Shown one piece after another: positions 7,518 through 44,497 of a DNA stretch of 64,000 nt; position 1 is the first letter of the stretch, and each line of letters starts with the position of its first letter. The stretch is taken from the NCBI RefSeq assembly GCF_019059575.1, contig NW_024881968.1, forward strand, positions 124,001 through 188,000, read 5' to 3'. Source of the stretch: Amphibalanus amphitrite (Eukaryota; Arthropoda; Thecostraca; Balanomorpha; Balanidae). The notes below the pieces were generated by a model. That model had not been told where the DNA came from. It made no database searches and saw nothing but the letters and a program-made list of their open reading frames with translations. A program made the position numbers and the translations under genes.

Positions 7518-8436
7518 TTAACCCTCGCCCGCACATGGGGGGGGGGGGGGGTGGTTGCCACCCCCCCAGGTAGTCTTTCTGCTCTGCACTCAACATTTTT
7601 AAAGCTAGAAGGCTGATTTTTCGTATAGCTGCTCCTCTATCCTTTCTTGATGTCCACTGAAAATTTCAAGTTTCTGTGATTTTTGGTTTCGGAGATATGA
7701 CCTTGTTTTTCAGGTCATGTCATGACCCAAATGGCCAATTCTCAACATCTTGCGTTTGCCATGGGCCTTATGAGCTTTTGACACCCTGATTTCGGCCTTT
7801 TTTGCCAGTCTTACCTCCTACCTATCATGGAACATGTTGTTCGACGATGTACAGGGGTCAAGGTCAGGGTCAAGGACGGTCAACCTAGGTCACCTAAGAT
7901 AATTGCGTTTTAGGCAAGCTGAATTTACTTTTTTTGAAGTTTTTTGACTGCATTTTTGGTAAAAGCTTCTCAGATCATGATTTCATGTAATATGGACCCA
8001 AAAACAATCGGTGCACACATCAGTATACACACAGACACACACAGACATACAAACACATATAATTGACCTTGACCTAACTTGACCTGAAATGACCTCAGCA
8101 GCAAAATTCTGGTCGGGTAGTGTGACAAAGAGGTTCTAGCTGCCTTGGCACCAGAAAACAGCATCGTCATCGGTAATTGATAAGCAGCACACTTGATATC
8201 CAACGGTGACCCAAAACAGCAACATTTTTTAGTTTGACCTGACCTGGAAGGTCAATGACTGACCTGAGAAGGTAAAACTGGGTATCATTGGATTCGTCTC
8301 TTCCCAAAGAATCTTTTTGGTCTTTACTGCTAAGCTCTATCTCCAACAGGAACGAAATGGCGCGGGGGGTGGCAACCCCCCCCCCCCCCCATGTGCGTTC
8401 TAGGATGGGAAAATGGCATGTGCGGGCGAGGGTTAA
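7518..8436 (-). mobile_element. Element A: TTAA-flanked, G-hairpin, AGGTCA-rich non-autonomous element
   Basis: Flanked by TTAA at 7518-7521 and 8433-8436. The outer ends are CCCTCGCCCGCACATG and its complement. A G-run, the palindrome GTGGTTGCCAC and a C-run follow inside the left end. The right end has the same tag twice (GCACATG) before its own stem-loop. The interior contains many TGACCT/AGGTCA hexamers (for example 7858-7900, 8064-8095, 8236-8266) and a short CA-type run. There is no transposase. Strand is assigned by placing the doubled-tag end first. The superfamily is probably piggyBac, based only on TTAA plus CCC. Confidence 0.8.
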
Positions 8437-8775
8437 TGTCGACGGGAAAGCCTGAAGCTCGAAGCAGATAGGCAAGCCATTATCCCTCAGGGAGACTTAT
8501 GCATGTAAGTACTTCAACGACGGTGAGCCATCGATAACAAACAAAATAATCAATGGTCCCTCGTAACTCGTAAGTTAAGTAATGAAATCGTTGAGGACTG
8601 CACACGGCGCAAACGAAACATGACCATTGACCAATGCCACAACATCAGTATTTTTCATTTCATTTTTAGTGAATTCTCATGTCGGAAGTTATCTTGAAAT
8701 AACGCTCTAGGATGAAGAACAATAACACTCGCGAATTCAGTGTAACTAAAAACAGCAGTTGCTGAGCGCCGATGC

Positions 8776-8781
8776 TTTATT
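8776..8781 (-). terminator. Poly(A) signal of the lectin gene
   Basis: AATAAA on the minus strand, about 65 bases beyond the stop codon of the fibrinogen-related gene. The position and spacing fit a functional signal. Confidence 0.6.
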
Positions 8782-8843
8782 TGTATCAATCGTTGCGACA
8801 TGATACCACCGTGCCGAGTCAAGTCGGCTGAGGTTTTGGACGT

Positions 8844-9626
8844 TCACGCCTTCTTTGTTGGTCTGATCTTCATGGTCGTGGCGTTCAGGCAGTACTCTTC
8901 CCTCCATTCTCGCCACATGATGCCCGTCCAGTCACACGATTCGGAAAGGTACCTGCCGTTCAGGTTCGAGGTGTAGCAGTAATAGTACCACCAGGCTCCC
9001 TGCCACTCAGCTGCACAGCTCTCATCCCAGGCGTCATGGTCCCGGTCAAACGTGGAGAATTGCATCCCGTTGTGGTAGCTTAGACTGTCCCCGGCGTTTC
9101 CCGCGTAGTCGGTAAAGTCCAGTCGGTAGCCGTCAGCCTCGGACGCGATGGTGAACTTCTGGTAGGTGGCGTACCTCGTTTGCCCGTCCCAATCCCAAAG
9201 ATCGACCCGCAATTCGTACTCGCGATCCTGCTGGGAGGTCAGCTGCCAGAGGTAGTGAAGTCCCCACCAGAACTCCCCAACGAAAACTCCCAGGCCCCAC
9301 TTGTAGGCCTCCCAGTCCTGGAAGAAGTCCTGCCTTGGTGTGATGTCGGCTCTTCTTTGGAAGACGGTCCATCCCTCGCCGTCGTCCATGTCACAGTAGG
9401 CTGGGGTCGGAGTCACACCATCAGGTTTGATAAAGTATGCCCCGCTGGGGGATCCTAAGGGCACGTCACTGCAGTCGCGCACAATCGAATCTTCCTGCGG
9501 TGTACCGTCAGTAGCAGACGTCAGCTCAGAGGTCATCTCAGAGGTCAGGTCAGCGGCTGAACCAGAGCTGCACATCAGCAGCCAGAGGACGTTAATCACC
9601 ACTGGGAGACATGACGGTAGCTTCAT
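8844..9626 (-). CDS. Secreted fibrinogen-related protein (ficolin/tachylectin-like lectin)
   Basis: Secreted protein of about 260 residues in a single exon. The family binds acetylated sugars on microbes or acts in adhesion. The ATG at 9626 begins MKLPSCLPVVINVLWLLMCS, a clear signal peptide. A Ser/Thr/Glu-rich linker follows, then a whole fibrinogen C-terminal domain. Its landmarks include RDCSDVPLGSPSGAYFIKP, YCDMDDGEGWTVFQRR, GEFWWGLHYLWQLT, the RVDLWDWDG region, YHNGMQFSTFDRDHD and CAAEWQGAWWY, ending near MKIRP. The D-R-D-H-D segment is the usual calcium-binding loop, and the CAAEWQGAWWYYYC region is next to the ligand pocket. There is no collagen stalk and no coiled coil before the domain. 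Arthropod genomes often carry many such genes, and the particular paralogue cannot be named. Confidence 0.94.
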   Translation of the reverse strand: MKLPSCLPVVINVLWLLMCSSGSAADLTSEMTSELTSATDGTPQEDSIVRDCSDVPLGSPSGAYFIKPDGVTPTPAYCDMDDGEGWTVFQRRADITPRQDFFQDWEAYKWGLGVFVGEFWWGLHYLWQLTSQQDREYELRVDLWDWDGQTRYATYQKFTIASEADGYRLDFTDYAGNAGDSLSYHNGMQFSTFDRDHDAWDESCAAEWQGAWWYYYCYTSNLNGRYLSESCDWTGIMWREWREEYCLNATTMKIRPTKKA

Positions 9627-9675
9627 GGTGCTGCACAAGGAAGCATGTGTTCACCTCAGAGGACCAGTCGCCTTC

Positions 9676-9714
9676 ACTGAAGGTGTGGTCGCCGGTCGGT
9701 CCGTCCGTCTTATA
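9676..9714 (-). promoter_or_regulatory. Putative core promoter of the lectin gene
   Basis: On the minus strand TATAAGA (9714-9708) is followed 36 bases later by TCAGT (9680-9676), the arthropod initiator pentamer. That leaves a 5' UTR of about 50 bases before the ATG at 9626. The TATA-to-initiator gap is slightly longer than the usual 30 or so. Confidence 0.4.
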
Positions 9715-9918
9715 CCGCCTCACAGGTGGCTGGCTCACATCCACTACCGTCATGATGTGTGACCCAAAACAACTGTTGCAACAACATTATCTATCTTTAG
9801 TGAGCCGGGAAAGAACCAACCAGGAAAATAAAACAGACTTATCGGAATTCACAGCGCGAACGCTCCCTCAAATAAGTTACAGCTTTTAGACGGAGGGGTT
9901 CATGAAGGCATCAATAAA

Positions 9919-10809
9919 TCTATATTACTATTTGAGTCTCAGCTCGATCGGGTCGATAGGGAGCGCGTGGTGCGTGCCCAAAAAGTGCAAATTCGCGTCA
10001 TAGACTTTACATGTATAAATCGGCGTGCGAAATCGGGAGAAAACGGCTAATTTTGGCCGACACTGGTCCGGTTCCGGCGCAATATCTTGGTGACCAGGGG
10101 TCCGACCGGCACGGGGAAAACAGCATCGTGTAGATAATTGAATGGGCAATTGAATGGTGTGCGATGCAGTGGATGGCACGTGCCACGTGCACCGGGGAGG
10201 GCACTTTTGTTGAAAAATTGCGGTTTTGGGCGGATTTTGGAATTGATTTTATTTTTAGGTGACAGTTAAATGGAGCGAGTTGAATCAACGCCTATTTGCA
10301 AGAGAAAGGTACCGCCTCTCATATAAAAATTGTGAAAAGCTGATTGATCCAAATCAAGGTGGTGCAAATCACAGGAGAAAATGGTGTTTGTCAATTTTGT
10401 GCCAGTTTATTAATCACACGGGGTTTGCTGCATAACCTGATACCTTTGGCAATTGAATATGGTACCATTGGATAGAGCATTCAATTCTGTCCAATATTCA
10501 CTCTTCATTTTCGCATGATTAGCAACAGTATCCTTAAAAAATGTAAATGTTCCAAACCATTACATTGTCATTTTTAGCGAAATTCATCGATGGCCCTCAA
10601 AAGACTTCACGCCAGTTTTCGAATCATTCTTAAGTAGAACGCATGATAATACGACAGGGGCACCTCGATGCGATGTATCTTTTTTGTTTTGGCCATCAAA
10701 AAGCATTCGAACGAAATGGATACCAACCAAATCGACACAGACCAACCCAATACCCACGGGTCACAAATAACCCTTCTTCGCGTTGCGGAGCACGCGGGTA
10801 ACCCTAGTA
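9919..10809 (+). mobile_element. Helitron-like non-autonomous element
   Basis: The 5' end reads A|TCTATATTACTATTTG and the 3' end reads CTAGT (10805-10809). A short stem, CGCGT and ACGCG around TGCGGAGC, lies about 10 bases before that end. This TC...hairpin...CTRRT arrangement is typical of Helitrons, which leave no target duplication. The base after CTAGT is A rather than the expected T, so the insertion site is not perfect. The interior is AT-rich and non-coding. Confidence 0.5.
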
Positions 10810-11649
<840 letters not shown>

Positions 11650-11767
11650 AAGCGAGAGGAGGAAAAGAGGTGGCGAAGAGCGAAAAAGAAAGAGGTGGAG
11701 CACGACCGGTGATGTCGATCAGAGGAAAAGGAGAGAGGAAGGAAAAATAAAAGTACCTATCGAAGGC

Positions 11768-11930
11768 CATAGGCGGCGGAACGGGGGGGGGGGAGGGGCA
11801 CCGGGGCACCGTGCCCCGTTGACTTTGCCATTTCAACATTAGACCTATGGGCGTTGCATGGAAAGAATGGGACCAAAAGTCGGCAGTGCCCCCCCCCCCC
11901 CCCTTAATTGAAGGTGTTCCGCCGCCACTG
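11768..11930. mobile_element. Miniature hAT element, 163 bp, with exact 8-bp target duplication
   Basis: The left end CATAGGCGGCGGAAC and the right end (read inward) CAGTGGCGGCGGAAC form terminal inverted repeats. The element sits between two exact copies of TCGAAGGC (11760-11767 and 11931-11938). An 8-bp duplication is the hallmark of hAT transposition. The interior has a G-run and a C-run near its ends and no coding sequence. Confidence 0.85.
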
Positions 11931-11938
11931 TCGAAGGC

Positions 11939-14710
11939 TCGCGACACAGTATTATCAACTGCTGATCTGTTGGTGGTTTTAACAAGTGACATTTAAGATG
12001 TCAATATTTACCAATAACCACAATTACCCAGCCCATTTATGAGAAACACGAACTATGCCTGGTGCTCACGCCCACAATTTTCCCCTTTCTATACCAGACT
12101 CCGAAATTTATTGGCCGATCACGCGGTTACCTATTGGTCTAGACAGGCCGTGTTTCGGAGACAGCTGAACACGCTCAACTGGGCGTCACGAACGCTGATT
12201 GGGTGACACACCGTGACGTCACGTGTCATTTAGTGTGACGTCACGAGCCACCGTCCTGAGGCACATCGTTACTTCTAAAAGTAGAAATAGCAAAGGAATG
12301 ATGCGACACAATTAGCGGAGGACTCATGAATTTTTAGTCGCTCGAGCAGCATGTCTGTGCCTATCAGGCTTCTCAGGACTTATCAGGATTATGTGTCGTT
12401 TATGGCGGCAATGAGCCAGAGTTTCAGCGAGGCATCATATGCTTTCTGTCACTTCGGCATGCACGGGATGTGTGCGCGCCTGTATGACTACATGGGTCAT
12501 CCCGAAATCCACTGATCACGTGACTACCATCGCGCCCCGCCCCGACCTCTATCCTGTCTGGATCACGTGACCACAGGGCGTGACGGAGGCCGGATCACAC
12601 CGGATCCTGTCCCTCCCCCTCCCCTCGGGCCCTCTGCCCCTCTGCCCCCCCCTTGCCCCTCTGCCCCTCATGACCTGCCTGCGCATCAAATGCAGGGTGG
12701 AGCGCGACGGAAATAGCTCAAAATCGTACGCTTTGAGTGACGTGCCGACGTGCATGATTTGATGCAGCATGATGGGCAATAGACAGCAGACATGGAGTCT
12801 TGGACAATAGATAGAGGGCAAAGACAGGTGCTATCGAGACACACGAAACATCCAGCCGGCAGAGCATCGAGGACTGATCGAGCACATACCGTCCACTGAG
12901 CGAGGAAGACTACTTGTGGTACAGCGAGTGGAGATAATATTTCAAGTAGAGATGGAAAAGCGTAGACATGGAACTTTCTTTTAGTGTGCGCTTACTGGCT
13001 TAAGTGAGACTGTTGAAAAAAGCAAGCAGTTTGAATGACACGCATGCCTTTTTACTAATTGAGGAATGAAAATCCTTCAGCTTCTTCGTAACGGGTTTAG
13101 CAACAAAGGTTTCTTTTCCGTCTGCTTGGGTGAAGCTAAAACGTATGCTAGTCAGTCCTTCTTTTTACCGTATTGAAGACATACAAAAGATGCATAGACT
13201 AACACCCACGGTATTTTTGTTTCAAACTTATCATTTGCTTTCACACGTTGCGTAATGGCAAAGCAATGCTAGTGCAGGCGGATTTCCATAAATCCGTATT
13301 TCGGGCTCACCCCTTGCAGTTACGCTTCCTGCACGTCCTAATTAAACGAGCGCGCAGTCCGTGTAAGCCAATGCTTCGTGAAAGCCAAACATGTCGATTT
13401 GGCGGGCGCCGGGCGACTCGGGGCAGGGCCCGGCTGGGCCCGCACACATGAAGGTCATTAGTGAAACGATGCGTCGATAATTTCTCTGATTTCACGCGCT
13501 ACGTATTGCTGGGCGTTTCACGCTGAAAGAACGGTTGTCTGTTTGAGCTGCTCGCTCGGCCCACGGAGTAGGTAAGTTCAAGATTTTAGGTCCCATGGAA
13601 TGACGACTCTTCATTGTTAAAATAATAAATAGTTCAACATCGTTCCAAATGTTCAAGCCCGAAGAAAAATCACGCAAAAAGTTTATAGAGTAGCGCTTAG
13701 GAACATCAACCAATAGCGAAGCGTTTATTACCTTCACTCGTCACGCCTCAAGATTGTAAACGCTCGAACAACAACGGAGGGTGAAAATGACAAGCTGTCA
13801 CAAACTGTGCAGCGATAAGGGCGGATGTGGTGCTACAACAGCGACATCAGCTAGTGCTACCCCAGCTGCGACGCGGCGATTGCTGTTGGTGGTGAACCGC
13901 CTGTGGTCGGTCTGACCGCCACCTCGGAGACGCACAGGAAAGCGTCCCCACTCGCGTGACCTCACGGCACAACAGCTTACAAGGACGCGTGCAGGCTTTC
14001 GTTACAAGAGAGCACTGCAAAAACCACCTCTCGCTACGGCAGACTTCCGCTGTGGAACGGATCTAACAGAGTGTCAGGAGAGTCATCCCGACACGGAATG
14101 GTGCAATGGCTTTGGATGGGGATGGGGACGGGAGCGTGACCTGAGCGTGCGCCGTGCACCTCCTGTTGGTGCCATCACCAGCGCACCGTGGGAGGTGCAC
14201 GCAGTCACTTTCACGAACCGCTTGCAACAGCCTGGAGAAATTCACGATCAACCATTATGACGATCGGCGCTTCTCACATTTCATAACGTTTTCAGAGACC
14301 ATAAAGAATAGGCAACTGATGGTAGCATAGATAACTGAATGTGCAACCTTTCTCGGGATATTTTGCAGCGATTGCGTATAATGGTTCAATTGCATTTTTT
14401 AATCAGTTATATTGCCTGTAGGTGTATTAAAATATGGAACGTCGCTCAATAAAATGATAAGACTGAACTTTTCACCCACCTTTAATGTGCCATTCATTTT
14501 GTCCTTGGCCTCTTATTGTATGTGCTAATTCATCATAAACACAGCCCTCATTGTTGTATCTTTTTGTTGGGTACGTCATAACCCAGTTTAACGTCAAAGT
14601 AACAACAAAGACCCGCCCGTCCGTCCCCAAATCCTTGCATCACTCCCCTCCCCCTCCCACACACACACACACACAAACATATGTACAATACCCCCTCCCC
14701 CAGCACTGAC
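11939..14710. other. Long non-coding stretch
   Basis: No supported exon. It could be an intron if the exons at 14711-15940 and 6397-6514 belong together. A CRE pair lies at 12214-12243, a CCCT-rich patch near 12610-12670 and a CA run at about 14655-14675. Confidence 0.4.
12214..12243. promoter_or_regulatory. Paired palindromic CRE sites with an E-box
   Basis: Two exact TGACGTCA octamers at 12214-12221 and 12236-12243 are spaced 22 bases start to start. CACGTG overlaps the first (12220-12225). TGACGTCA is the CREB/ATF site and CACGTG the bHLH E-box. No start codon or exon is evident close by, so the target is unknown. Confidence 0.45.
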
Positions 14711-15940
14711 CTTGAAGAGTAGTTTGGCCAGTGTGACCGGGTCGAGTCGATCGTGAAGTCCCCGGTACAGCGGCAGGATCAGACCCAGCCGCCTGGCCGC
14801 CGACACCGCCTGGTACCAGCGCTTCAGCGAGGGCGGCGTGTTCACCAACTCGTCCAGCAGCGTCTCCAGCTGCCCCTCCTCCTCCTCCTCCGCCACTCCC
14901 GGCAGGGGGACACTCCAGGAGGGGGCCCGAGAGCTCCCCTGCTGGGCCGACTGCGGTGGGGTTGGACGTCTCATGACGTCACATAGCTCCGCTGCCAACT
15001 GTCTCTGCTGTTTCACCGCGCGACGCTCCGGAGGAACGTCCTTCAGACGAGGGAGGTCTCCGTCCGTACGTTCATCAGCCTCACTCTCGGAGATTAGTCT
15101 GGCGCCGGCGCCAGGGGCGCTACTTCTCTCCTTGTGTGAGAAGAAGCGCACCTCTCCCAACTCCGTGGCAGAGAGGTACCCCAGGCTGCGAGCTTCCTCC
15201 AGCAGGTCATGTCTCAGCACGGCGATATCCGCTGCCGTCGGCCGCGCGGCGCGGGACTCCCTCGCGCGCCCCCGCTCCCTCCGACGAAACTTCTGCAGGC
15301 TGAGGAAGGACTTCTGGACGGGCAGGTCGGCCGGAGGCCAGCAGGTCTGCTGGCCTCTCCGTGGCGTCGGCAGCGTCCGGAACTGGGGGTTATACCGCGA
15401 GAACACAAACCTCGGTCGGCTGGGCGTGCCTCCGTACCGATCGGGCCCGCGGCGCCGGAGGATCCCCCGCACTGGACGATCAGAGGTCTCCAGAAGGTCG
15501 TCCACGCTGGAGGTCTTCCGGACCGGGTGGACGTGCTGGAGGTCATGTTGGTTGTCCTCTTCCGACGCCAGGTGCTCTGCGCTGCCCCAGACGCCGCTGT
15601 GTCTCTGCAGACGTCTGTGGCCCTCCAGTGAGTCTGATCTCTGCCGGTCGGCCGCCGGGCGTCTCCTCGCGTTGGGCACCTTCAGCGCGCTGTGTGAGGA
15701 AGCCTCGCTGCGAGGGACGGCTGAGGTATCCGTGCACGCGGAACACCCAGAGGACACGTTCGACGGCTGTGACGAGGTCAGGGAGGCGCTGTCGGTGGCC
15801 TCCCGACCGCTGTCCGTACACTCGCCGCACATCTCGGATTCCCTCGCAGCCTGCTGAGGTCCCGGGTTCGAATCCACCCCCGAGCGCGTCTCTTTGTCCG
15901 CCTCTGAGAGACCGAGCTCTGACCGGCGCCACTTGAGCAT
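14711..15940 (-). CDS. Large coding exon of an unrecognised, mostly disordered intracellular protein
   Basis: From a genuine ATG at 15940 the frame runs 410 codons to a donor, CTTCAAG|GTCAGT, at 14711/14710 (phase 0). The open frame continues about 38 codons into what looks like intron. The protein begins MLKWRRSELGLSEADKETRS and is rich in Ser, Arg and Pro for its first 280 residues. It then carries charged helical stretches (AAELCDVMRR, an EEEEE run). It ends in a denser, probably folded part containing SLKRWYQAVSAARRLGLILP and LDPVTLAKLLFK. No signal peptide or membrane helix is seen. The rest of the gene must lie at lower coordinates; 6397-6514 is phase-compatible. I do not recognise the family. 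The opposite-strand frame of 339 codons is a GC-composition shadow. Confidence 0.65.
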
Positions 15941-18595
15941 CGAGTGTTGGAATCTGGAGTCCAGGTGGTGTATTCAGGAGCGGTAACAGACCTCCGTGAA
16001 ATACAATGTCTGAAGACGGCGTCCCAGGTTACGAGTAGTCCTTGTCCGTTAATGTAATCGAGCGGGCACGTGCCAACACGGCCTAAGACGGCACGTCTCG
16101 TGATATTCCGTGTTGGAGATCGAACACGTGCACTACAGTTAACGTTTAAACACGTGCCCTTATCGGGTTTGAATAGTTTCTTGGAACGGATCAGCGTGTA
16201 GAACGGCACACGTTTGGGCAGCTGTCACGAAATGATTATGGCGTATTTCAACTATTCGTTCAATGCCAACCCTCAATTCATGATTGTGAGACAATGCGGC
16301 ATAGCCACTGGTTTCTTTACCACAATGTCTATCAATTCATGAGTGAACAATTGCCAAAATCAGCACAGCAACTTGTCACTCCATTGTTACCAGCACTATC
16401 ACTAACAATGTGACTGACTGCGATACTGACTGGTTGACTGACGGACTGATAGCGCGACTGACAGCGTGACTGACCGGCGTGGAACGCGGCGCCACCCGGG
16501 GTACAGCCCCCACCCTCCGCTAGCTTCCGGTCAGCGCGGGTGCTGTGCGGAGGGGGAGGGAGGGGAGGGTGCGGTGTGTGTGCCACACCCTGGATACGGA
16601 CACGGACTGCCGCGGGTGAAGAGCTGCGGACACAGCGGGTCCGGGGACACGGTGTCCGGCGGATCTGAGGACACGATATCTCTGACGGGGCTGTGGACAC
16701 AGTCCACTGTCCGGTAGACCTGAGGACACGTGTTTGACGAATACAGCTGAGGATACGTGCACCCGCCAAAGCCGAGGGAACAATCTGTCCGATCCACGTG
16801 CTAGTGCTGAGCTGGGAGCTGTGAAACGTTTTCTCTTTAGTGTTTCTGTGGATCACCGGCTCATGACGATCGAACAGTGAATCCAGGAGGCGGTGAGTCG
16901 GATCATTTGGGACGGTGATTTTACATGCACCAGTGGTTTCTTCACTTTTCTCCTGGCTTCGCTCGTTTCTGGATATGGCAGCAGTTCTCTTCACGGGCTT
17001 GTTTGTTGACCGCAAACTGTCAATGTCAGTTTGACAGTGAGTGTCAATTCAAATCTTTGAATTGGCCTCTGCCCTCAATCTTTTACAAATCGGAGCACAT
17101 CTATCCTCGGTAAAACGACGAATATAGCACTCGCACTAGCACCAAATCACGCCACCACTGGCCACAATAGTTTCACGTCAGCACACCACTCCCTTCCACG
17201 TGTCCCGCTGTTTCGTACCTCGGCTCACTGCTTCCCCGTCCGTTCACCGTACCGACGCTGCCTCGTCCGAGTGTCACACTCACGGCACCACCCCTGCCGC
17301 CTGTCACCCGGGCCCCCGCCGCCGACCGACTGTGTGTCACGTATAGGACCCGACTCCGCCCCGACGGTGAAACGCCCGGGGCACTGGAGCGGCACAGCGC
17401 GCGAGCCGACCGCCCGGCTAGCGCCCCCGACAGAGGATAATGGGAGGGGGGGGGGGTTGTAGTGAGATTATCCGTAGGATTTGTGTCATGAGAAGAGCAG
17501 TAGGATTGACTGTGAGGTGGGGTTGATGGTCGGATCGGGTATCTTGTGAAGGGAGTTGAAGGGAATTATTTTGTCGTGATGTGAGATGTAGGAGTGGTAC
17601 TTGATTACAATGTATGGTAAGTGTTACGGTGAATATTTTTTGATGAGTTATGAGTTAGCCCTTTTACCCAAGAATGGAGATGCTTTATTGCCTATTAATT
17701 GAAGGATATGTGATTGACTCAAACTAGATTTGGCTATATCCGATTATAAGGACAAGATAGGCATGATTTATTTGAAACGACAATTTAGACAGCGACTATC
17801 AATAATGGAGGTCTAAAAATATTTTTATTGGATATACATATCTATTATTCATGCTTTACTTGCCCATAAAAGTTTGACGCTCCATTCACCGAGCTCAGTT
17901 ACATATCCATGTAGAAACTCCTCGACTTTCACCTTCACTACCGCGAAAAAGTTATTCGTGTCATTCAAACACAGCGCAAGGTCGCACTCTACAGCTCACC
18001 ACCGTGACGAAAACAAAACAAACAGAATAAAGCAGACTGCGGCTGATTATAATTGCACGGGCCGCGTCCCCGGTATCACCCCACGTGCAGGTCGTGAATG
18101 CAGCATTGGCGGCCGGGCAGCCGTGACAAGTTTCACGACCCCAAAGAACCGAGACAGAGAGGTATGTATGACGGAACGCGCCGGTATTGGCGACATCACG
18201 CAGCGCGACACAGTCGCCATTGTTCTCACTTTTGACCAAACCTAGCGAAAGTCGATATGTAGATGAAGATGAAAGTTTTCGGCGGGCTCTGTTCCACGAG
18301 CCTATCGGGCTGTTTTCAATTTTCAGCAGCCTCCTCGTGACATCGACATGAAATGGATGGAGCGTCATGGTCATGCCCTGTCATGGGCATTGGGATGTAA
18401 AGTTAAGACTTCGTGTGTGAGTAGTCTTAATTGTCAATACCAGTTGCCTTTCGATCGTTTTCATCATCAGTCAGTCTCTATTTTTGTTTTTCAGCTCTCT
18501 TCGAGACTTCCTACGCACAAAAACTGGAGGAATGCTTTAATGGATTGCTTTATAGAGTCATTTTGTGTAAAAATAGCATTTTAAGGTCTTCCGTC
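15941..18595. other. Stretch with no supported gene
   Basis: The part at 16450-16760 and 17220-17440 is GC-rich with overlapping open frames on both strands but no domain or splice signals. The remainder is AT-rich. Part may be promoter or 5' UTR of the minus-strand gene at 15940. Confidence 0.4.
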
Positions 18596-28366: not shown

Positions 28367-29436
28367 TCACATACAGAGAGGCTCTCCGAAGAAGGGTGTC
28401 GACTGCTCCACCATCCTGGTGACGGTCCTCTCCAGCCAACAGAACGTGTCTACGTCTGCCATCCTGGTATACACGTCCGGCCAGCCGAGCAGGCCGCGAC
28501 ACGCGGCGTTCCAGGAGAGCAGGCCGACCAGCACGGTCCGGCCGGGTCGCGCCGGGTCATCGCAGGTCAGAGGGGCCCCGGAGTCGGTCTGGAGGGGAGA
28601 GGGGAGGTCAACGGGGGAGGGAGGGTCAGCGCAGGTCAGAGGGGCACCAGAGTCGATCTGGAAGGGCGGGAAGAGAGGGGGCAATGTTAATAACAGAGAG
28701 ACATGGTGATGAAAGATAAATAGTCGTCGTCGTCTAAATTCCAAGTTCTAGCCAACAACCAACAGCCAACAGTCCACAGCACACAGTACTCACAGTCCTA
28801 TAGTCTACTACCCTTACTCCGCACTCCCTAGTCTTTACAGTCGTTAATCCACAGTCTCCACAATCCACAGTGTCGCCCCACAGTCCCCACTGGGCACTGA
28901 CCCGGCAGGCCGACTCGGAGCCCGGTTCAGTAGCGGCGCAGATGAACGAGTAGTGGAGTCCGAACGTCTCTGGCAGTTTACCGGTGGCCTTTAGACCCTC
29001 CTCGCACTGATCTCGCGTCAGGAGGTGGACCGAGGTGGCTCGGACTGAGCTCGCTCGCTCCTCTGGGAACAGAGAGGGCGCCAGGGGTCACCAATGGACA
29101 GAGGGGGGCGCCAATGACCCCCATTAGACAGAGAGGGTCTCCATTGACAGAGCAGTGGTGCGGACTGATCTCGCTCGCTCCTCTGGGAACAGAGAGGGCG
29201 CGTGGGGTCACCAATGGACAGAGGGGGGCGCCAAATGGCGCCAATGGCCACCATTAGACAGAGAGGGTCTCCATAGACTGAGGGGTGGTGCGGACTGAGC
29301 TTGCTCGCTCCTCTGGGAACAGAGAGGGCGCTAGGGGTCACCAATGGACAGAGGGGTCACCATAGACGGAGAGGGGTAGCGCGGACTGAGCTGACCCGCT
29401 CCTCTGTGGACAGAGGGCGTCAGGGGTCATGCCAGA

Positions 29437-29532
<96 letters not shown>

Positions 29533-32500
29533 GAGAGAGGAAAAGGAGAGGCTAGGTGTCAAGATAAAGAAGACAAGAAAATATCACGAGTACCTACCTA
29601 CGACAGCTTGAAGTTCGACTGAGTCGTTATAGCTATAGTTCGATCATATATCAGGAACCAGCACGGGAAAGAGCTATGATGCCGTTACTTGGCTCGTGGC
29701 ACGTGCTGTGTAACACGGGGAGTGGGACTGTGCATTGGTGTAGTTTTTGGGAATGTGGAGTCCACTCAGTGATCCGCGATTCCCCAACAATTCGCGAATG
29801 AGCGAAAATGGAAGGGCACGAAAGTTATGCTGTCGATTGACGGATATGGTACAGTTATATCAATACCAGGAGCCAGAGGAAAAATCAATTTCGGAAGAAA
29901 CGACTGTATGCTTCTGTTTCGCATCAAGTTGTCGGAAAGCTAAAAATGATGCACATCAAACGTTCCGACAGAGACGCCGAACTAGCCTTACAGCCGTTCT
30001 CTCGTAGAAAACAGGCCCACTTCGGCTTCAGTCGGTCACGCCACACCATTCAGCCGTACCCTCCGCAACCACAACACGAAAACACGCAGAAGGCGCCCTA
30101 ATCCGGCGGATCTAATCCGCCGCGCGCCTTACCGTCGATAATCTGTACGGTCTGACAGCCGGTGAGTTGGGAAGGTTCGCCGGGGTCCAGTGTGGCCGGC
30201 CCCAGGCAGGCGGGGGTCACAGATGGACCGATTGGGACGGCCTCAGAGAGTCGCAGCACCGCCAGGTCGTGGTAGCGCGCCCTGCCACCCCAGTCGATGT
30301 GCAGTACGGACTCGGCCACAGTGAGGTCGCCACCGGCGCCCGAAGGCAGGCGGACCACGAGAGACTCGACCGGCTCGCTGTGGGGGAATTGTCAGAGTTT
30401 ATATCTATTTTCTCTTACGAGCATCAAAGCCGAAACAATAATAAAGGTAATTGTGGTATCATATTTAGATCAAACCTGCTTTACTCTGTCACCGACAAAA
30501 ATCGAACGTCAGGACAATTAGGTACTGAGTAAGTATATTTGGCCTGACTATCATCAGATACTTTTGAGCTACATGTATGAACCGTGAACGTCAAAACGTT
30601 TAAGCGAATGTAAGTGAGCCACTATTAACGACAATAGATGTCAAAAGAGCCTAGAAATGTGCGCAGGCTTCCCTTCCCAAATACGAAAAAAGATATTATC
30701 GGATTCGAAAAGCAAGCTTTCTCGTCAATTCATCATGTCTTACTCTTCGACGATGTGCGCGGCAGTGACGACGATCTTGGAGTGGATGAGGACCCCGGCC
30801 CCGCGCAGATGGGTCCCTCCCTGCTCCCAGACGGTCACCAGCCACGGAAACTGGCCGGGCGTCACCTCGTCGCCCTGAAACACACCGCAGATTGTCAGAA
30901 ATACACACGGTGATCAGCCGCAGAAACTTTGTGCGAGCAATCGAGACCAGAGTTGTGACATCTTCTGTAGCCCACATAGGCTTTCGGCAGATAGTGATTC
31001 ATTAGAAAAAATGAATGGAGGACACTGCGCCTCTGACAGCAGACTGTCGAGCAGCTATCTGAAGCAAGCTGTCGCTGCCTGTCATCTTTACACAGCGTTA
31101 TGTCTGTGCTTCTGACAGGGAGCAAACAGGATGGGGCACATGATTATTCCCTGTAACATACCACAACCACATACGCCGTTATCAGTAAAGCCACGGAGAA
31201 CGCTTCACTGATACATCACGTCGGTGCATTTCGCCTCTAAGCCAAAAATGCTCATTACAACTTGTCAGGACACTACAACTTGAGCTGACAACAACTTGTC
31301 AACAGTGATCAAACTAGAACATCACAGAGCACCGCTAGCCTAATCCCTGGACATGAGCACGCATCGCCTGACGAATGGCGTGCCAGGGGATCGGCATGCG
31401 ATTGGAATTAGAAGCACGAACGTAAGATTTAAAGCGTAACTGAATGTCAGGTAAATCTAACATGAGATCTAAATTCAACTGAAGGTAGGTCCTAAGAAAA
31501 TCAAAACGTCTGATGAGTGTGGGGTGGGCGTTTATCACGGTTATGTTATCATAAATGCGCATCAGTGGCCAAAAGATTAAGATGCGTCCTGGTGATAGCA
31601 ATAGCTATAAGATCACGCCAAAGCATAAGTTATCTGGCATATCTATGGCCTCGTAGCATGAAGACCATTCAACAGTTAAATGCTGTTGAGCGTATCAAAG
31701 TTGAGCCATCATGAAATTGCGCTAACACTTTATAGTTTTTACCGACTGTCAGTATGCCGAGACTTACTAGAGCCAACTTACATGGCTTGCGACGCTGGTT
31801 CTTGTGCCGCATCCTGGCTCCTGAGACAGCTTTGCTGTCCCGTTCTGTAGGTGCAAAACGTGTCATTATGTTGTAAAAAAGTAGTCAATAGATTTCAATC
31901 CTGACATGGACCAAATTCATAATCGATCGCAATTTTAAGGAATCTTTCGTACTTCATTGTATTTGTTGAACGTTCATTGTGACATGTATGACTAGATAAG
32001 TGAAACTTTTTTAAATATAAAGGTACTGTATTATAGAAAGCCTTTGCAAACGCGTTTCGAATATATCATCTTCAGTGCTAGCTTCCCATAATACAAAAAG
32101 AAAAAAATCTTTTTTTTTCTTTTTGTATTATGGGAAGCTAGCACTGAAGATGATATATTCGAAGCGCGTTTGCGAAGGCTTTCTATAATACAGCACCTTT
32201 ATATTTAAAAAAGTTTCACTTATCTAGTCATACTTCATTGTATCTTTTATGCCTACACACGTTTGGTGTATAATCGTCGACGTGATTCGTTAAGGTGACT
32301 CATTTCGAATCTTTTCACTGATATGGCGACTAAGATATTGATCCAAACGATACAAACATTATAAAAAGGAGGACAGAACTTCCCTCATAGCCAGATTCGA
32401 GCCATACCATTTTCTTCTCAGCCTGGACCCGAGATACCCACCTTTGAGTCTCCGTCTCCCTGCCGGCATTGGGTGCCGTCCACAACCTCCTCGGGCGGAC

Positions 32501-32807: not shown

Positions 32808-32959
32808 CTCTGTGGAGTTGACCGCAGGTCAGTCAGTGGTCGACGATGCTGGGTTACGTTGCGATAACGTATAGAAGGACGTAAAAGAGTGAAATGTTCG
32901 TGATAAGTGCACACTGAATGCTGAGCACCCTTTTGAGAACCACTGTGTATGTCAATGAA

Positions 32960-33970
32960 TTAACCCGCGCACCGACGGGGGTCTGCGCCAACTTCGCACC
33001 GACGGGGGGGGGGGGCGGATGACCGCCCCCCCTGAGATCTCGAGAACGAAGCAAGATAGCGACAAGCGGTAAACGGCATCGGATACGCACGGCCAAGATC
33101 TACAATTTTTACTAAGGTCATTTTCAGGTCAGGTCAAAGATGACGTCACAGGGGTCGAAAAAGTCAAAATGGCGGCGCTAGATATGGAGAGAGTTTTTCT
33201 CGAATAACTTTCTAATTAGTCAAGATAGGAACAAACTAAGGGCAGCATCGTGATCCTCTCGTCAATCCGCATCGAATGATATATACGTTGACCTCGAAAG
33301 GTCAAGGTCAAAGGTTGACCTCAGGTCACGTGACCTCGAGGTCATCATGTATCTCATTCGATGCGTCTTGACGAGCTGAACACAATGAGACCATCCACGC
33401 GTCTGTATCTTGTTCCTGTACGGAGTTATTGGCCAAAAACCTTTGGTGACCTTTGATGACGTCACATGACCTCACAGCTGCCCAACAGCAAAACAGACCT
33501 CAAGGTAGTGAAGGTTGATCGTATATGAAGTCATGTATGGTATATGGGGCCATTCCGACCCGTTTTAGTGGTAAAAACAGGGAGTTGATTTTTCCCCCAT
33601 TGACTTATAATGGGGAGGTCGCGAAATTGACCTGACCTTAGGTCACCGATATCAAAATTCCGAGATATACAAATTGTAGCTACTAATGACCTAATAGTAT
33701 CCTGCGACTTTCAAAGGCCTCCGACATCTACTGTAGCTCTGGCACGGTGACAAAGTTGCAAAAAAGTGACTTGAGGTTGGGTCATTCAAAGTGACCTGGT
33801 GACCTGACCTTAAAAGGTAGGTGGTTGAAACTTGCACACCATGTGTAAAATTGATGAGGTTATAGTCATACCAAATTTCGCGGCGCTACGCGCCGCGGTT
33901 TTCCCGCTATTCGCGAAAAACCTCAGGGGGGGGGGCGGATATCCGCCCCCCCCGTCGGTGCGAGGGTTAA
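32960..33970 (+). mobile_element. Element B: TTAA-flanked, G-hairpin, AGGTCA-rich element
   Basis: TTAA at 32960-32963 and 33967-33970. The tag CACCGACGGGG is doubled at the left end and single at the right (CCCCGTCGGTGCGAGGG). The stem-loops are G-run GCGGATGACCGC C-run (left) and G-run GCGGATATCCGC C-run (right). Inside the right stem-loop is the TTTTTCGCGAATA segment shared with elements C, D and E. Inside the left is GAGATCTCGAGAAC, shared with D. AGGTCA/TGACCT hexamers occur throughout (33114-33130, 33296-33345, 33450-33475, 33628-33647, 33787-33820), with two TGACGTCA sites. No transposase. Confidence 0.85.
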
Positions 33971-34370: not shown

Positions 34371-35558
34371 TTAACCCGCGCCCCGCTGGGCTATTCAGCC
34401 ATACGCGCCCTGCTGGGGGGGGGGGGGCAGATTCTGCCCCCCCCCCTGTCTAACTTCCGAACCGATGGTCGTAGAAAGACGGGGAAAACGGCAATCGAAA
34501 GCTCTCAACAAGGCGGATCTTAAGAGCCCAAATTTTTTTGCTTAAGTAGGTCAGAGGTCAGGTCAAGGTCAGGTCAAGGGTACAAAATGCAAGTTTCTAC
34601 AGTATCGGCCTTGCACCGTAGTTGCCGAAGAATGGACTGAGACTGATTGCCCAAAACGTGTTCTTAGACTACCAAGACAATATTCGTTGAACACAATGTC
34701 ATTCAAAGGTCAAGGTCAAGGTCAGGTCAGGTCAGGTCAGGTCACCAAAAACAAAATATAGAAAAGGGCATGTGCGACACATGTTTTATGGGTCATTTTA
34801 CTCATGGAATTCAATAGGCACACTCAATAAGTGATATGGACCACCTCTGGATGAATTTCAGGTCGAGGTCAGGTCAAGGTCAGGTCAAGTGAGGTCAAAT
34901 TTTGAAGTTGGTTGTTAAGGCCTAAAAAGGTGTCTATCCGATGCAGTTTTTCACGGCGAATCGAATGGTGCTATTTTTATTTCCGTACGAGGTCTAGAAC
35001 TTCCAAAAAATCATTTTTCAAAATTTTGGTGTGTCGTGACGTCATAAAATTTTGAATGACTCCCACATTTTTGAACCGATTCTTCTAAAAATTGGTATGT
35101 AGGTGCACATAGAATACTTCTTTGACATATATTCCGGTTTTTTCGATAAACTCAAAATTTTGGATTTTATAAATATTTTCCCGAAAAAGTCAGTTTTTTG
35201 GAAAAATTTTGGCCAAAATCCAAAATTTTCAAAAAAACCGAGATAGCCATTTGATAGACAAAGTAGAATCACGTATAACCTTTTTTGTTACGTCTTGATT
35301 CCTTTAAAAATGAGGAAGTTAGCGGCGTTTGAAATTTTGCCGTTTTTTAGGCGAAAATGGCGAACATGACGTCACTAAAACGGCAATTTCTCAAAAAATT
35401 TCCGACGGATTTCGCTCCAATTTTCAGGGAACGTGTCAAATTGATGTATGATAAGGTACTGAAAGTTTGACGTCGCTGGCGTAACGCGTTTAGAAGCTAT
35501 TGGCGAAAAACGGGAGGGGGGGCAGATTCTGCCCCCCCCCCAGCGGGGCGCGGGTTAA
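34371..35558 (+). mobile_element. Element C: TTAA-flanked, G-hairpin, AGGTCA-rich element
   Basis: TTAA at 34371-34374 and 35555-35558. The tag GCCCCGCTGGG is doubled at the left (second copy GCCCTGCTGGG) and single at the right. Both stem-loops are G-run GCAGATTCTGC C-run. Tandem AGGTCA arrays on the plus strand lie at 34549-34580, 34704-34745 and 34859-34900. The second half is AT-rich. It ends with the TTTTTCGCCAATA-type segment next to the right stem-loop. It lies 400 bp from element B in the same orientation. Confidence 0.85.
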
Positions 35559-36200
35559 TGCATTAAAACAGCTTTGGTCGTGTCAAACTACGTCTAACAT
35601 GTTAATTAGTTATGTTGGTTGATCGGTTATTCAACTAGTTTATTAGTTATGCTAGTCACCGAAAATGGGAAGCCAGTCAGCATCGATATAGCTTGGAGTT
35701 GAAGGCTTGGTAAAGGTTTAAAGCCAACTCAGTCTTGAACCCATTGAAGATACGCTATGAGGTTTTTTGTAAAAGGGCTTTGACCTTGAGCAGTAAAACT
35801 GTGACATGGAACAGCATATTTTAACTGCGAGTCGCTAGATTCGATAGATGTGAAAGCAGTTTTTGGGTGTCTTACGACATCGTTAAAAATTAGGATGAGT
35901 AGGCAGTAGGCACTAAGTAACATGTGTTTTTGTTGCAGTTTCAGCAAACTGCTTACATTAGAATTTCGATATTTTGCCAGATAAAATAAACTTTTATGAC
36001 AAATCAACTACCTGCGCGTCGGAAAGATACTCACCACAGGAAATAATGAATAAATAGAAAAATAAATAAATAGATAAATAGATAAATAAATAAATAATTA
36101 AATCAACAGAAACATGAAATTTTACCCCAGAAGCTGAGATCAGAGTTAGAGGGCACATAGCAGAGGACAGCAGAGATCGAATAGCGCACGGCCTCCTCAC
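35559..36200. other. Stretch with a TAAA-type microsatellite
   Basis: No supported exon. An AAATAAATAGAT-type run at about 36050-36103 is the only notable feature. Confidence 0.5.
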
Positions 36201-36393
36201 CTGCTTCGGAAGGGACGTGCTCCCGGCTCCGCAGACGCCGCCGTTCTGCCGCCGTTCTGGCGTACTGACCGCCGTACCAGCCACGATTGGTGCCGGGTCT
36301 CACCCCCCATGCAGTCTCACCCCCTTTGACGACTACCCCCCCCCCCTCTCTGTGGTCGAGACTGACAGGCGCCTCGCAGATGCACACACCCAT
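36201..36393 (-). CDS. Candidate first coding exon beginning MGVCIC
   Basis: An ATG at 36393 in a favourable context (AAAATGG) opens 64 codons that end at a strong donor, GAAGCAG|GTGAGG (phase 1). The N-terminus MGVCICEAPVSLDHRE has Gly2 and two nearby cysteines, like N-myristoylated and palmitoylated signalling proteins. The remainder is Gly/Arg-rich (GTNRGWYGGQYARTAAERRR). No downstream exon was identified. A G-run sits inside the frame, so a homopolymer length error could break it. I do not recognise the protein. Confidence 0.35.
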
Positions 36394-36832
36394 TTTACGA
36401 CCGGTCGCGAGTGGCTTCCTGGAGCGGATCCGGGCGGATCCACCTCCAGATCCATCTCCGGATCCAGCTATGACGAGCCGGCGGATCCGGGGGACCGACC
36501 GCCGGTGACATGGCGCTCACTCACGATGCCATCCTTCATCCTCGACGCGAGCCGGCTCAGCGAGCACGCTGTGAGTTGCATCACCATGTTCCGATGCACG
36601 GTGGGTGCTGTTTGGAAATAAATCGTCACGACTGTTCGCTGTCAAGAGGGTCGTCCTAGCCGCTGGGCGCCCGGTGAGCTGCTCGTGGCAGGGGTGGCTC
36701 AAGGTACCTCACTGTCGCCGGTGTTTTTTATGCAGAGGAGGCGCTCGCTCGGTCACGAGCTCGGCCGGCCTCGGTCGCCGGATATCCGTTCTGAGAAGGG
36801 GTGAGACGGGAGTCAGACGACTTTATCAGAGG

Positions 36833-37731
36833 TAGGGGAGAGTGGGGCAAAGCGGCCACCCGGGGCAAAGCGGCCATCCATCGTTTTAGCCCTCCACATC
36901 TGGCGTCAGTTCCAATTTATGGTTTCTAATTATACTTCTCTTCGCGGCCGTTCGAATGAGCCAGACCGTGGTTTCACGCCCATCGCCATTGTTCTGTGAA
37001 ACACGGAAAAGCATTTCTTGCCAGGTTACCAACTATGTTTACAGTTTTTAAATGTTATTTTATTCCATAACCATTTGTAATTTTTATAAGCGTTCTTGTC
37101 CATGCATTGTGTGGATATCGTACATGACTCCTACCAATTTTAATGCTTTTTACTCCACTTATAGCTGAGCTGGAATATTTTTGCCTCGGACGGTATGCGC
37201 GGGGCAAAGTGGCCGGGGCAAAGTGGCCAGACCCCAATTGGCCATAACTTGTTTCCATCTGGATAAAAACATTATTTATATTCCAATGTGTCGTCAGGTA
37301 TTCAGTTTGACCATTTTTCGGTTACAAGAGTTACCAAATAATGCAGTTAATTGTTTTTCCATGAAAATCCTTTATTTGTTTATCTACAGGTGGGAAAATA
37401 ACTAAGTAAACATCCATCCTCACTTAAACTTTGTCACCATCAAATACCCTAGTCGTATATGAGGCAACTATTCATTTTCTCATATCGGGACTTGAGAAGT
37501 CGCCGGTGGCCGCTTTGCCTCAGGGATGGGGCAAAGTGGCCAATATGCTATAGGTTTAAGGTTTTGTCAATATCTCCCATATGTGAACGCCTTTGTAAAT
37601 GAAACGCAGTTGGAATAAAAGGCAATTTAATAGGGATCACATTGGTATAGAAAGAATCTTTCCAAGTTTAGAAATCAAGCGTCGGCATCGTAAGAAGCGT
37701 TAGGGTGGCCGCTTTGCCCCACTCTCCCCTA
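36833..37731. mobile_element. TA-flanked element with GGGGAGAGTGGGGCAAAG ends
   Basis: It begins TAGGGGAGAGTGGGGCAAAG and ends with the exact complement CTTTGCCCCACTCTCCCCTA, extended by GCGGCCA. The end word GGGGCAAAGTGGCC recurs inside (about 36864, 37201, 37214, 37528). TA is the only visible target duplication. No transposase is encoded. The superfamily is not certain. Confidence 0.8.
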
Positions 37732-41767
<4,036 letters not shown>

Positions 41768-43012
41768 GTAACCCGCGCCCTGATGGGGGCCATTTTGGCC
41801 CCCCTGTGGTTTTTCTTAAATAGCGAGAAAACGGCGGCGCGCAGCGCCGCCAAATTTTAAGTACCTTACCGGGCATCAGTTTGACACCTTCACACAAAAT
41901 TTCAAGTCACAGGTCACCTCAGGTCAGGAGTTATTGAGGTCAAACTGAGGTCATGTTCGAGAAAAAATGAGCAAAAAACATGACATCTTGAAACGCTCAC
42001 CAATTCTACAGTTAACAAGCAATTTTAAAGTTTTTTATGTGGTTGTGTAGAAAAAAGACAGCGCTACAAAACTGTTATCTTGGATTTTCGATTTTTTTTT
42101 ATTTAGACCCCTAAAAATAAAAAAAAATGATTTTTTTTAGAAAAACTCAAAAAATTTCCAAAAATTTTTCGAATTTCAAAAAAACGGAATGTATGTGATA
42201 ATCCCTGCGCTCTTCGATATACATACCAAATTTGAGATCGATAACTCTTTTTTGGCCAAGTTATAGCGAAAAAAAAAAACTTAAAAATTGATGACGTCAA
42301 ATTTTTGAACTCAATTTTTAGCAATTCTAGACCTCGTAGCGCAAAACGGAGACCACCATTGAACTCCCCATGACGAGCTGCATCGAAACGATACTCATTT
42401 TATGCAAAAATATCAATTTTGAAATTTGACCTAATTTGACCTGACCTTGACGTGACCTTGACCTGACCTTGACCTGACCTTGACCTGACCTTGACCTGAC
42501 CTTGACCTGACCTTGACCTGACCTTGACCAAAACGTGACCTAAGCTAGTCCAAAAGTCTGCCTGACCCACATAATCGCATTTGTCATGTAGGTAAAATGG
42601 ACCATAAAACATGTATCACACGACACTTTCATATTGTGACCCCCCCCCCCCCCCAGTGACCTGACCTCTGTGACCTGACCTGGTATCAGTGACCTCAAAT
42701 AGCAAAATATGTGTTTGAAGAAAATTTCCCCATCGATAATTTTCAATGAAATGCATTTTACTCCATTTTACAACGCATTTCTTGAAATGCCTGTAAACGG
42801 TGAAAATTCGACCTTTGCCCTGACCTGTGACGTCATCGGTTTGACCGAGGTCAATGAAATCGGGTCACAAGGAAGTTCCCCGTTGGGGCTATCCAACGCC
42901 GTTTACCGCTTGTCGCTATGTTGCGTGGTTCTCGAGATCTTAGGGGGGGGGCCAAAATGCCCCCCCCCATCAGACCGCGTTGCTCGGCAGACCCCATCAG
43001 GGCGCGGGCTAA
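41768..43012 (-). mobile_element. Element D: G-hairpin, AGGTCA-rich element with an 11-bp half-site array
   Basis: The ends read GTAACCCGCGCCCTGATGGGGG (left, single tag) and CCCCATCAGGGCGCGGGCTAA (right, doubled tag). The flanking TTAA is mutated to GTAA and CTAA. The stem-loops are GCCATTTTGGC (left) and GCCAAAATGC (right), between G- and C-runs. About 42429-42530 is a run of TGACCTTGACC-type 11-mers. The right interior matches the left interior of element B (GAGATCTCGAGAAC, then the CGACAAGCGGTAAACGGC stretch), so D is inverted relative to B. Two TGACGTCA sites are present. Confidence 0.82.
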
Positions 43013-43155
43013 GGGAGCAGCGGCTGCGAATTGGATAGTGACTACCTGAAACCCATTCTTTGCTTGTCTTGACTGTGCTGGCGTTACTGTTAGTTGCGTA
43101 GTCGACAATAAGTCGCCTCCCTTTTACGGATGCATCAAAATATATTCCTGCCCGG

Positions 43156-43270
43156 GGCCGGGATGATTCAATAAATGTCACCGAGGTTTTTTAGCGAAAA
43201 CTCCGAGGGCCGTTAGGCCCGAGGTGCTTTTCGCTAAAAAAGCGAGGTGATATTTATTGAACTCCCGGCC
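43156..43270. repeat. 115-bp palindromic element
   Basis: GGCCGGGA at the left pairs with TCCCGGCC at the right. The arms pair through TTCAATAAAT/ATTTATTGAA, TTTTTTAGCGAAAA/TTTTCGCTAAAAAA and CGAGGGCC/GGCCCGAGG, with a 4-base loop. It lies between elements D and E. Non-coding; probably a MITE. Confidence 0.85.
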
Positions 43271-43609
43271 TTAGGGCTGGAAGGTGTTTCCCATACCTGC
43301 CAAAAAGCTCACAACTATAATTGATAGTGACGTCAGCAGCCGTGTGGTTCAACGCGTTTAACCGCACCCCTTGAACCACACGGCTGGCAATATTAAATCA
43401 CTGCATTAAACTTTGAAAAGTGTGGTACAGTGCACGTGCCATTAAAATGCCTGGATGTCTCGATTTAATCATGCAATGTAGCAGGTATGGGAAAGCAGCA
43501 AGCAGCACGATGGCAAATGAAATGTGCAGTGTGCAATGTGCATCGTGGCTATAGTGACACAAATTAGTCGGGAAAAACGGCGAAATTCAGAATTGCAGCG
43601 AAGTTCATT

Positions 43610-44497
43610 TTAACCCTCGCCCGTATTGGTGTTTTTCCAGCCGCGAACGTATAAGGGGGGGGGGGGGTCCGTTGGACCCCCCCCTGCCGTTTCGCCCCTG
43701 ATCGAGCTAGAGCTTCGCGGAAAAAACGAGCGTGTTGCCCGTGACGAGAGGAAGCCGATGATACCCAATTTTAAGGTCCTAGGTCATTGGTTGACCTTGC
43801 AGGTCAGGTCAATGACCCCAAAGGCGGGAAAATCGGGACCTGTTAGAACGTCGTAAAGTGTAGCTGCTATGGGGTTTTTCGGGGTGCTGATCACGAATAT
43901 CATGTTAGTTTTGATCACAGATGATGTCTTCATGTATTTAGGCCAGGTCGGGTCAGGTCAGGTCAGGTCAACCAGTAAGGGTATTCGTAGTAGGTGGCAA
44001 CCGCCTCTGACAGCTTCGTAACATGTTACGAAGGCACCAAAACTACTTCGTAAATGTTCATATGGTTGCTAAATTCGAATTCAGCTCCAAAAACTGACCT
44101 AGAAACATGTAAAACTCGAAAAAGTGAACCGATGTCATCAAAGGTCAATGACCTGACCTGACCTTCAGGTGACCTTGACACCCACCCTAATGCATGGGGG
44201 CAACATCATATCACATGTTTGAACGCTTGAAACCACGAAAAGACTGCAAACGCGCGGCTAATGCGAGCCGACATACGCCGAATCGCGATTCCAGCCAAAC
44301 ATGGTCTCGAAAAGTAGGTCACAGGTCAAAGGTCATTTGGGTCAGGGTCATGAAATTTTCAGGGTAGGTGTGAAATTGATGAACGCGAGGCTACTGAGAG
44401 TTTCGTCGTGATCGGCCGCTTTTTACGTGAGTTATTCGCGAAAAACCATGGGGGGGTCCGTTCGACCCCCCCCCCCCCCTATACGGGCGAGGGTTAA
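43610..44497 (+). mobile_element. Element E: TTAA-flanked, G-hairpin, AGGTCA-rich element
   Basis: TTAA at 43610-43613 and 44494-44497. The tag CGCCCGTAT is followed by a second copy, GCGAACGTATAAGGGG, at the left. The right end carries the tag once (TATACGGGCGAGGG). The stem-loops are GTCCGTTGGAC and GTCCGTTCGAC between G- and C-runs. Half-site clusters lie at 43793-43814, 43947-43972, 44143-44178 and 44317-44350. TTTTTCGCGAATA lies next to the right stem-loop. No coding sequence. Confidence 0.85.

Follow-up and report, generated by a model that had tools for sequence, protein, structure and literature searches.

piggyBac transposases are much used in genome engineering, and the right end (RE) of the piggyBac element reportedly carries a direct repeat with a period of 27. 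As described in the available parts of one source (PMC7351741), the left end (LE) of piggyBac spans 35 bp and the RE 63 bp. There, bp 34-63 of the RE are almost identical to bp 7-35 of the LE, the RE has a 17-bp insertion and a duplicated motif, and the palindromic repeat is bound by a dimer of cysteine-rich domains (CRDs). These published numbers (34 minus 7, 63 minus 35) give a shift of 27-28. Here, we analyzed a stretch of 64,000 nucleotides of the barnacle Amphibalanus amphitrite (GCF_019059575.1, contig NW_024881968.1, positions 124001-188000; hereafter the window) within its genome of 807,550,619 bases in 2,644 contigs. The window carries five short elements whose ends resemble those of piggyBac and whose interiors are packed with the hexamer AGGTCA, in clusters that recur with a period of about 173 bp. 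We argue below that these are non-autonomous piggyBac elements, from an animal lineage that has diverged into many lines within a single genome, and we weigh what the spacing of the clusters may mean.

The first-pass annotation had listed five TTAA-flanked elements, all of which we found exactly at their given coordinates (Table 1). The flanking TTAA is intact on both sides in four of them; in element 4 it has decayed to GTAA (left) and CTAA (right). The structure described for their ends, i.e., a CCC(G/T)CGC start, a short tag, a G-run, a core, and a C-run, is present at 10 of the 10 ends, and the CCC/CCY tips are inverted at all ten. Elsewhere in the window, a loose G-run/C-run pattern occurs at 29103 and 52420 only. 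Separately, at 3546-3612, GCGCGGGTTAA and a long run of C may represent a solo end of the G-run piggyBac family that has decayed; no partner end was seen for it.

The elements had been proposed to belong to a dispersed family, and the end pattern is indeed abundant: 29,558 forward and 88,189 reverse matches were found in 807.55 Mb (0 and 0 for the reversed-pattern control). We used the forward count alone, since single ends were probably counted more than once in reverse through alternative gap placements. Applied to both strands, it leads to an estimate of ~59,000 strict ends, or roughly 30,000 elements. The same scan returned a single unrelated match in viral contigs, on a contig with phage-type genes, and six unrelated matches in prokaryote genome contigs, all bacterial. 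As an aside, a bacterial repeat made of TTAACCCGCGC and a G6/C6 palindrome has one match in each of four contigs (L003-L006) of one Oscillospiraceae genome bin.

Insertion at TTAA can be followed at empty sites. Among nine comparisons, chosen from rows spanning the element, the flanks were joined over a single TTAA at an empty paralogous site in four (L028/L052, L053/L033, L053/L050, and L050/L032). In four others the paralogue had no TTAA at the site (L028/L019, L028/L009, L060/L039, and L033/L031), and the remaining one, of an ordinary piggyBac, did not align. Within the window itself, no empty site was found for any of its five elements. Some elements lie head to tail and share one TTAA (L057 671-1618 and 1615-5585; L058 1655-5631 and 5628-6806).

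To identify transposases, we searched the genome with the profile PF13843 (DDE_Tnp_1_7), which gave 116 scored matches among 232 candidates. Thirty of these loci were read (L008-L015 and L046-L067). G-run palindrome ends surround the transposase in seven of the 30 (L053, L055, L057, L058, L060, L066, and L067), listed in Table 1 as copies A to E. PF13843 was matched by every protein tested, i.e., those of L057 (E 2.4e-69), L060, and L066, and the two pieces from L067. The transposase of L057 (copy A) also matches the piggyBac structures 6x67 and 6x68 in the PDB (E 2.2e-78, over residues 116-665 for 6x67) and aligns with 6x67 around D268, D346, and D447, which we take to be the three catalytic aspartates of piggyBac. 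Its match to piggyBat is at E 3.4e-30 and covers residues 120-565 only. A cysteine-rich C-terminus is present in copies A to E.

Several of these copies can be tied to short elements. In L057, a 948-bp element and a transposase copy of 3,971 bp have the same ends. Element 5 of the window and L067 have identical short-end tags and cores, and their long ends differ by single bases. The core of element 4 equals that of L066 and is near that of L060, its tag differing from both; no transposase copy with the ends of elements 1-3 was found among the 30 loci read. We found no transposase in the window elements, while transposase-bearing copies with the same kind of ends exist elsewhere. Together with the TTAA junctions and the empty sites, this bears out the suggestion that they are non-autonomous piggyBac elements. 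Among the other loci, TTAACCCATTA-type tips stand beside the transposase in 13 of the 30 (one tip only was seen in L010, L054, and L056), and these look like ordinary piggyBacs; in 10 of the 30 no matching end pair was recognised. In L049, an ordinary piggyBac with TTAACCCATTAGTGCCC tips (2663-5343) is nested in a G-run element; it comes from a 604-amino-acid transposase family with many equal-score copies among the PF13843 matches.

Each window element has one short end and one long end. At the short end, TTAACCC and the tag are followed by a G-run starting 13-15 bp after the TTAA. At the long end, the G-run starts 27 bp later in all five elements, because the tag is present twice there (in element 5, the two copies are 26 bp apart). 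Oriented with the short end first, the window elements are homologous near both ends. In a set of 20 elements, 19 could be parsed (the other being L042), and the shift of the long relative to the short end is 26-28 bp in 19 of 19, a range in which the L066 shift of 27 was included as 26.

The tag and the core are alike at the two ends of one element and unlike between elements. Of the 120 pairings of ends in the window, the true one is best, for the tag and for the core alike. Across 19 codes, own ends exceed other ends in identity of the outer tag (6.53 vs 3.15 of 7), the inner tag (5.05 vs 2.12 of 6), and the core (0.86 vs 0.44), values reached in each case by 0 of 20,000 permutations. The runs of 5-15 G at the ends might also suggest that these act as insulators or G-quadruplexes. 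We regard this idea as extremely improbable: the run length varies between copies of one code, and each G-run is paired with a C-run in the palindrome.

The claim that the interiors are packed with AGGTCA holds up well. The hexamer and its complement TGACCT occur 92 times in the 5,251 bases of the elements, vs 56 times in the 58,749 bases outside, and dinucleotide-shuffled elements hold 2.6 on average, with a maximum of 9 in 300 shuffles. The sites form 25 separate clusters (at most 8 in the shuffles), and among 538 1-kb windows outside the elements the busiest holds six. The density is high in other copies too, since 28 complete short elements, the five of the window included, average 15.7 per kb, the lowest values being 6.5 and 7.4.

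AGGTCA is the half-site of nuclear receptors, and the clusters may be response elements that serve either the element or host genes as enhancers, the spacing between them coming from nucleosomes. The 92 sites in five elements fit such a role, as does the TCA found in front of 16 of the 92. No dimer spacing prevails, however: among 67 neighbour pairs at most 12 bp apart, most are overlapping (26) or abutting (12) direct repeats, which can also be produced by tandem slippage. From the motif content, we give this role somewhat less than even chances, and it can be compatible with the nucleosome array discussed below. We also considered positional conservation of the hexamers, as unmasked alignments placed 62 of 100 in well-aligned columns (10 pairs summed); this claim was dropped because hexamer-blind alignments did not support it.

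The clusters are regularly spaced, a feature that, like the asymmetry of the ends and their matched codes, goes beyond the first-pass annotation. For the analysis of gaps we used 29 complete elements, namely 28 of 37 listed end pairs and element 4; L018, L024, L038, L049, L055, L058 (1655), and L060 (710) were left out, together with two mispaired rows (L050 6661 and L058 1396). In these, 79 of the 106 gaps between clusters are within 140-199 bp. When 19 representatives chosen by end code are taken (L042 and L044 among them being close), the median of 59 gaps is 171 bp and 83% are within 140-205 bp, compared with 21% under random placement (maximum 34% in 500). The best period is 173 bp, with a coherence of 0.72, vs at most 0.24 in 500 random placements. 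L042 was reversed in this analysis, which affects its tip distances only. Distances between all pairs of hexamers peak near 170, 350, 510, and 670, with deep valleys between the peaks (1,228 hexamers in 343,081 bases, a set that includes the lattice elements and leaves out four near-duplicate loci). Slots interpolated from the lattice that lack AGGTCA often hold another word, TGACGTCA, found no more than 35 bp away in 11 of 20 slots, vs a null mean of 2.4 (0 of 5,000). Genome-wide, TGACCTGACC and TGACCT are found 155-185 bases apart 59,547 times forward and 75,777 times reverse (59 and 84 for backwards-read controls), although the count alone is no proof of spacing.

Such spacing might be the fossil of an old tandem repeat, with monomers of ~170 bp each carrying an AGGTCA cluster, inside ordinary piggyBac miniature inverted-repeat transposable elements (MITEs), and have no present use. 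Satellite monomers of ~170 bp are common, the period is uniform, the long outlier gaps (345, 513, and 550 bp) are near two and three times the period, and the lines have partly homologous segments in common. Yet the segments of one element are barely alike: 360 comparisons score 15.5 on average vs 14.7 for shuffles, with three reaching 40 vs none, and a simple tandem-unit origin is unsupported by this comparison. Moreover, the segments between clusters form 21 groups without detectable mutual homology (blastn, E 0.01) that still keep the spacing, the group median gap being within 140-205 bp for 18 of 21, and the rhythm described next would need a separate cause. We find this origin unlikely.

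The AGGTCA-free segments (90-190 bp) are 136 bp long on average and carry a rhythm of AA/TT/TA, whose spectrum, scanned from 5 to 20 bp, is highest at 10.0 bp. Taking one segment from each of 20 homology groups, the power at 10.1 bp is 0.557, vs 0.175 in 420 control windows outside the elements, from which those with long CT/GA runs were excluded; none of 2,000 same-size samples reaches the observed value. Compared with dinucleotide shuffles, the rhythm at 10.2 bp has a z of 6.3. When the analysis is confined to the window elements (14 segments), the power is 0.553 vs 0.174 (0 of 5,000). The power is 0.22 in eight other piggyBac loci and 0.11 and 0.13 in the coding parts of copies A and D, respectively; among their non-coding parts it varies (0.185 and 0.674 in A, 0.368 in D). 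Nematode germline genes carry periodic A/T clusters, and by analogy the rhythm could shield the element from germline silencing rather than phase nucleosomes. We think this very unlikely: the peak at 10.0 bp agrees with it, but the 173-bp spacing of AGGTCA is left unexplained.

We favour, with a probability of about 0.62 and as the best explanation overall, piggyBac lines with matched end codes and a sequence-encoded nucleosome array. From established knowledge of nucleosome positioning, an encoded array with marked linkers is expected to look this way, and a period of 173 bp lies in the usual range of nucleosome repeat lengths; we found both the regular spacing at a nucleosome repeat and, between the clusters, the 10-bp rhythm of WW (A or T at both positions). 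We interpret the AGGTCA sites as lying in linkers, where a host protein would bind, because the 173-bp spacing and the mutually unrelated, rhythmic segments of ~136 bp resemble such an array. In the proposed mechanism, the end code would be recognised by the transposase of the matching line. The DNA-binding or catalytic part of this transposase may bind the tag, adjacent to the tip, and a dimer of its CRDs, by analogy with Trichoplusia ni piggyBac, the G-run/C-run palindrome. The transposase would then join one short and one long end and insert at TTAA. In the interior, the ~136-bp AGGTCA-free segments would be wrapped as nucleosomes and the clusters of AGGTCA (or TGACGTCA), every ~173 bp, would be the linkers between them. 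These linkers could be occupied by a host protein that binds AGGTCA, possibly a nuclear receptor, which would hold the array in register, and the element might benefit by being kept, ends included, accessible or evenly packaged.

A number of observations weigh against this explanation. In hexamer-blind alignments, AGGTCA is conserved in 7 of 186 cases and the control words (the first 40 of 45) in 103 of 1,146. The segment groups may share an older homology missed by blastn at E 0.01. The rhythm is missing from the 5' non-coding part of the autonomous copy A (0.185) and from three of the four segments of element 2 (0.14, 0.17, and 0.09), it is weakly phased at the centres of segments (resultant 0.26), and the antiphase of WW and SS (G or C at both positions) is also seen in control DNA, though less (0.34 vs 0.59). 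Regarding the ends, agreement between the tags of the two ends is poorest in line A, and copies C and D have near-identical cores, yet only 20 of 47 residues are identical in their CRDs. The latter pair speaks against a simple rule of co-evolution between CRD and core, a rule for which five transposases are too few.

If nucleosomes sit as the sequence suggests, a mobile element would here be dictating how it is packaged, and its tens of thousands of copies would serve as replicates in a natural experiment, across a whole genome, on nucleosome spacing encoded in sequence. We put at even odds the broader proposition that a family of tens of thousands of copies, in some 19 or more end-coded lines, carries its own chromatin plan, with AGGTCA linkers read by the host and a phased array at each insertion. 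Many end codes occur together with transposases in this one genome, which makes it a natural library for learning piggyBac end recognition. No described G-run family, nor such spacing in a transposon, appeared in titles and opening abstracts among the matches listed.

Table 1. Elements, end palindromes, and AGGTCA lattices in the window (window coordinates; strand gives the short-to-long direction), and transposase copies with G-run ends elsewhere in the genome (by locus).
Feature	Position or locus	Strand	Description
Element 1	7518..8436	+	919 bp, short end left; tag CCCGCACAT, core TGGTTGCCA
Element 1, short-end G-run/C-run palindrome	7537..7567		
Element 1, long-end palindrome	8364..8390		
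Element 1, AGGTCA lattice	7698..8265		clusters 7698-7717, 7861-7892, 8064-8095, 8235-8265
Element 2	32960..33970	-	1011 bp, short end right; tag CACCGAC, core CGGATATCCG
Element 2, long-end palindrome	33004..33032		
Element 2, short-end palindrome	33926..33953		
Element 2, AGGTCA lattice	33115..33810		clusters 33115-33136, 33289-33344, 33447-33472, 33628-33692, 33792-33810
Element 3	34371..35558	-	1188 bp, short end right; tag CCCCGCT, core CAGAATCTG
Element 3, long-end palindrome	34415..34446		
Element 3, short-end palindrome	35516..35541		
Element 3, AGGTCA lattice	34548..34897		clusters 34548-34576, 34707-34744, 34866-34897
Element 3, interpolated slots			three, nearer short end; two hold TGACGTCA, 188 and 518 bp from short tip
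Element 4	41768..43012	+	1245 bp, short end left, flanks decayed (GTAA/CTAA); tag CCCTGAT, core CCATTTTGG
Element 4, short-end palindrome	41785..41804		
Element 4, long-end palindrome	42943..42968		
Element 4, AGGTCA lattice	41911..42853		clusters 41911-41953, 42427-42541, 42657-42695, 42821-42853
Element 4, interpolated slots			347 and 531 bp from short tip; second with TGACGTCA
Element 5	43610..44497	-	888 bp, short end right; tag CCCGTATA, core TCGAACGGA (short end) / TCCGTTGGA (long end)
Element 5, long-end palindrome	43655..43684		
Element 5, short-end palindrome	44450..44479		
Element 5, AGGTCA lattice	43781..44335		clusters 43781-43811, 43955-43970, 44095-44175, 44316-44335
Transposase copy A	L057, L055, L058		G-run palindrome ends
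Transposase copy B	L053		nested short element inside, short tip decayed
Transposase copy C	L060		nested element
Transposase copy D	L066		G-run palindrome ends
Transposase copy E	L067		tips decayed, frame break; short-end tag and core those of element 5

The rest of the window holds other features. Positions 31986-32233 form a near-perfect palindrome, perhaps a fold-back element, with two 122-bp arms that are 98% complementary and separated by 4 nt. A cysteine-rich open frame of 895 amino acids (46388-49075) matches DUF7107 and Dickkopf_N and contains a 75-bp tandem repeat, and an open frame on the minus strand (8844-9650) has a fibrinogen C-terminal domain. The proteins of the window, including an ASC channel and the fibrinogen-C protein, suggest an animal.

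Among described elements, the CMITEs of Acropora corals (PMC2872659) are also TTAA MITEs in several families, with differing terminal repeats and a shared internal region; like the barnacle elements, they are linked to piggyBac and occur in tandem arrays. They differ in length (~100 bp) and in having a conserved interior of 75 bases, and the available parts of that source describe no AGGTCA, G/C-run palindromes, or regular spacing. The piggyBat element of Myotis lucifugus, as far as the extracts of its description go (PMC11707139), shares with the barnacle elements a repeated motif and an imperfect palindrome as the binding unit of the transposase, its right end lacking such a palindrome, unlike those studied here. 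The piggyBac of T. ni (PMC7351741) differs from the barnacle elements in that their palindrome is built as G-run, core, and C-run, with core and tag differing by line, and in that the interior lattice has no counterpart described in the available parts of that source. Both have, nevertheless, the TTAA target, the CCC tip, asymmetric ends with a palindrome, a tip-proximal motif duplicated in the long end with a shift of 27-28 bp, and a related transposase with a C-terminal CRD.

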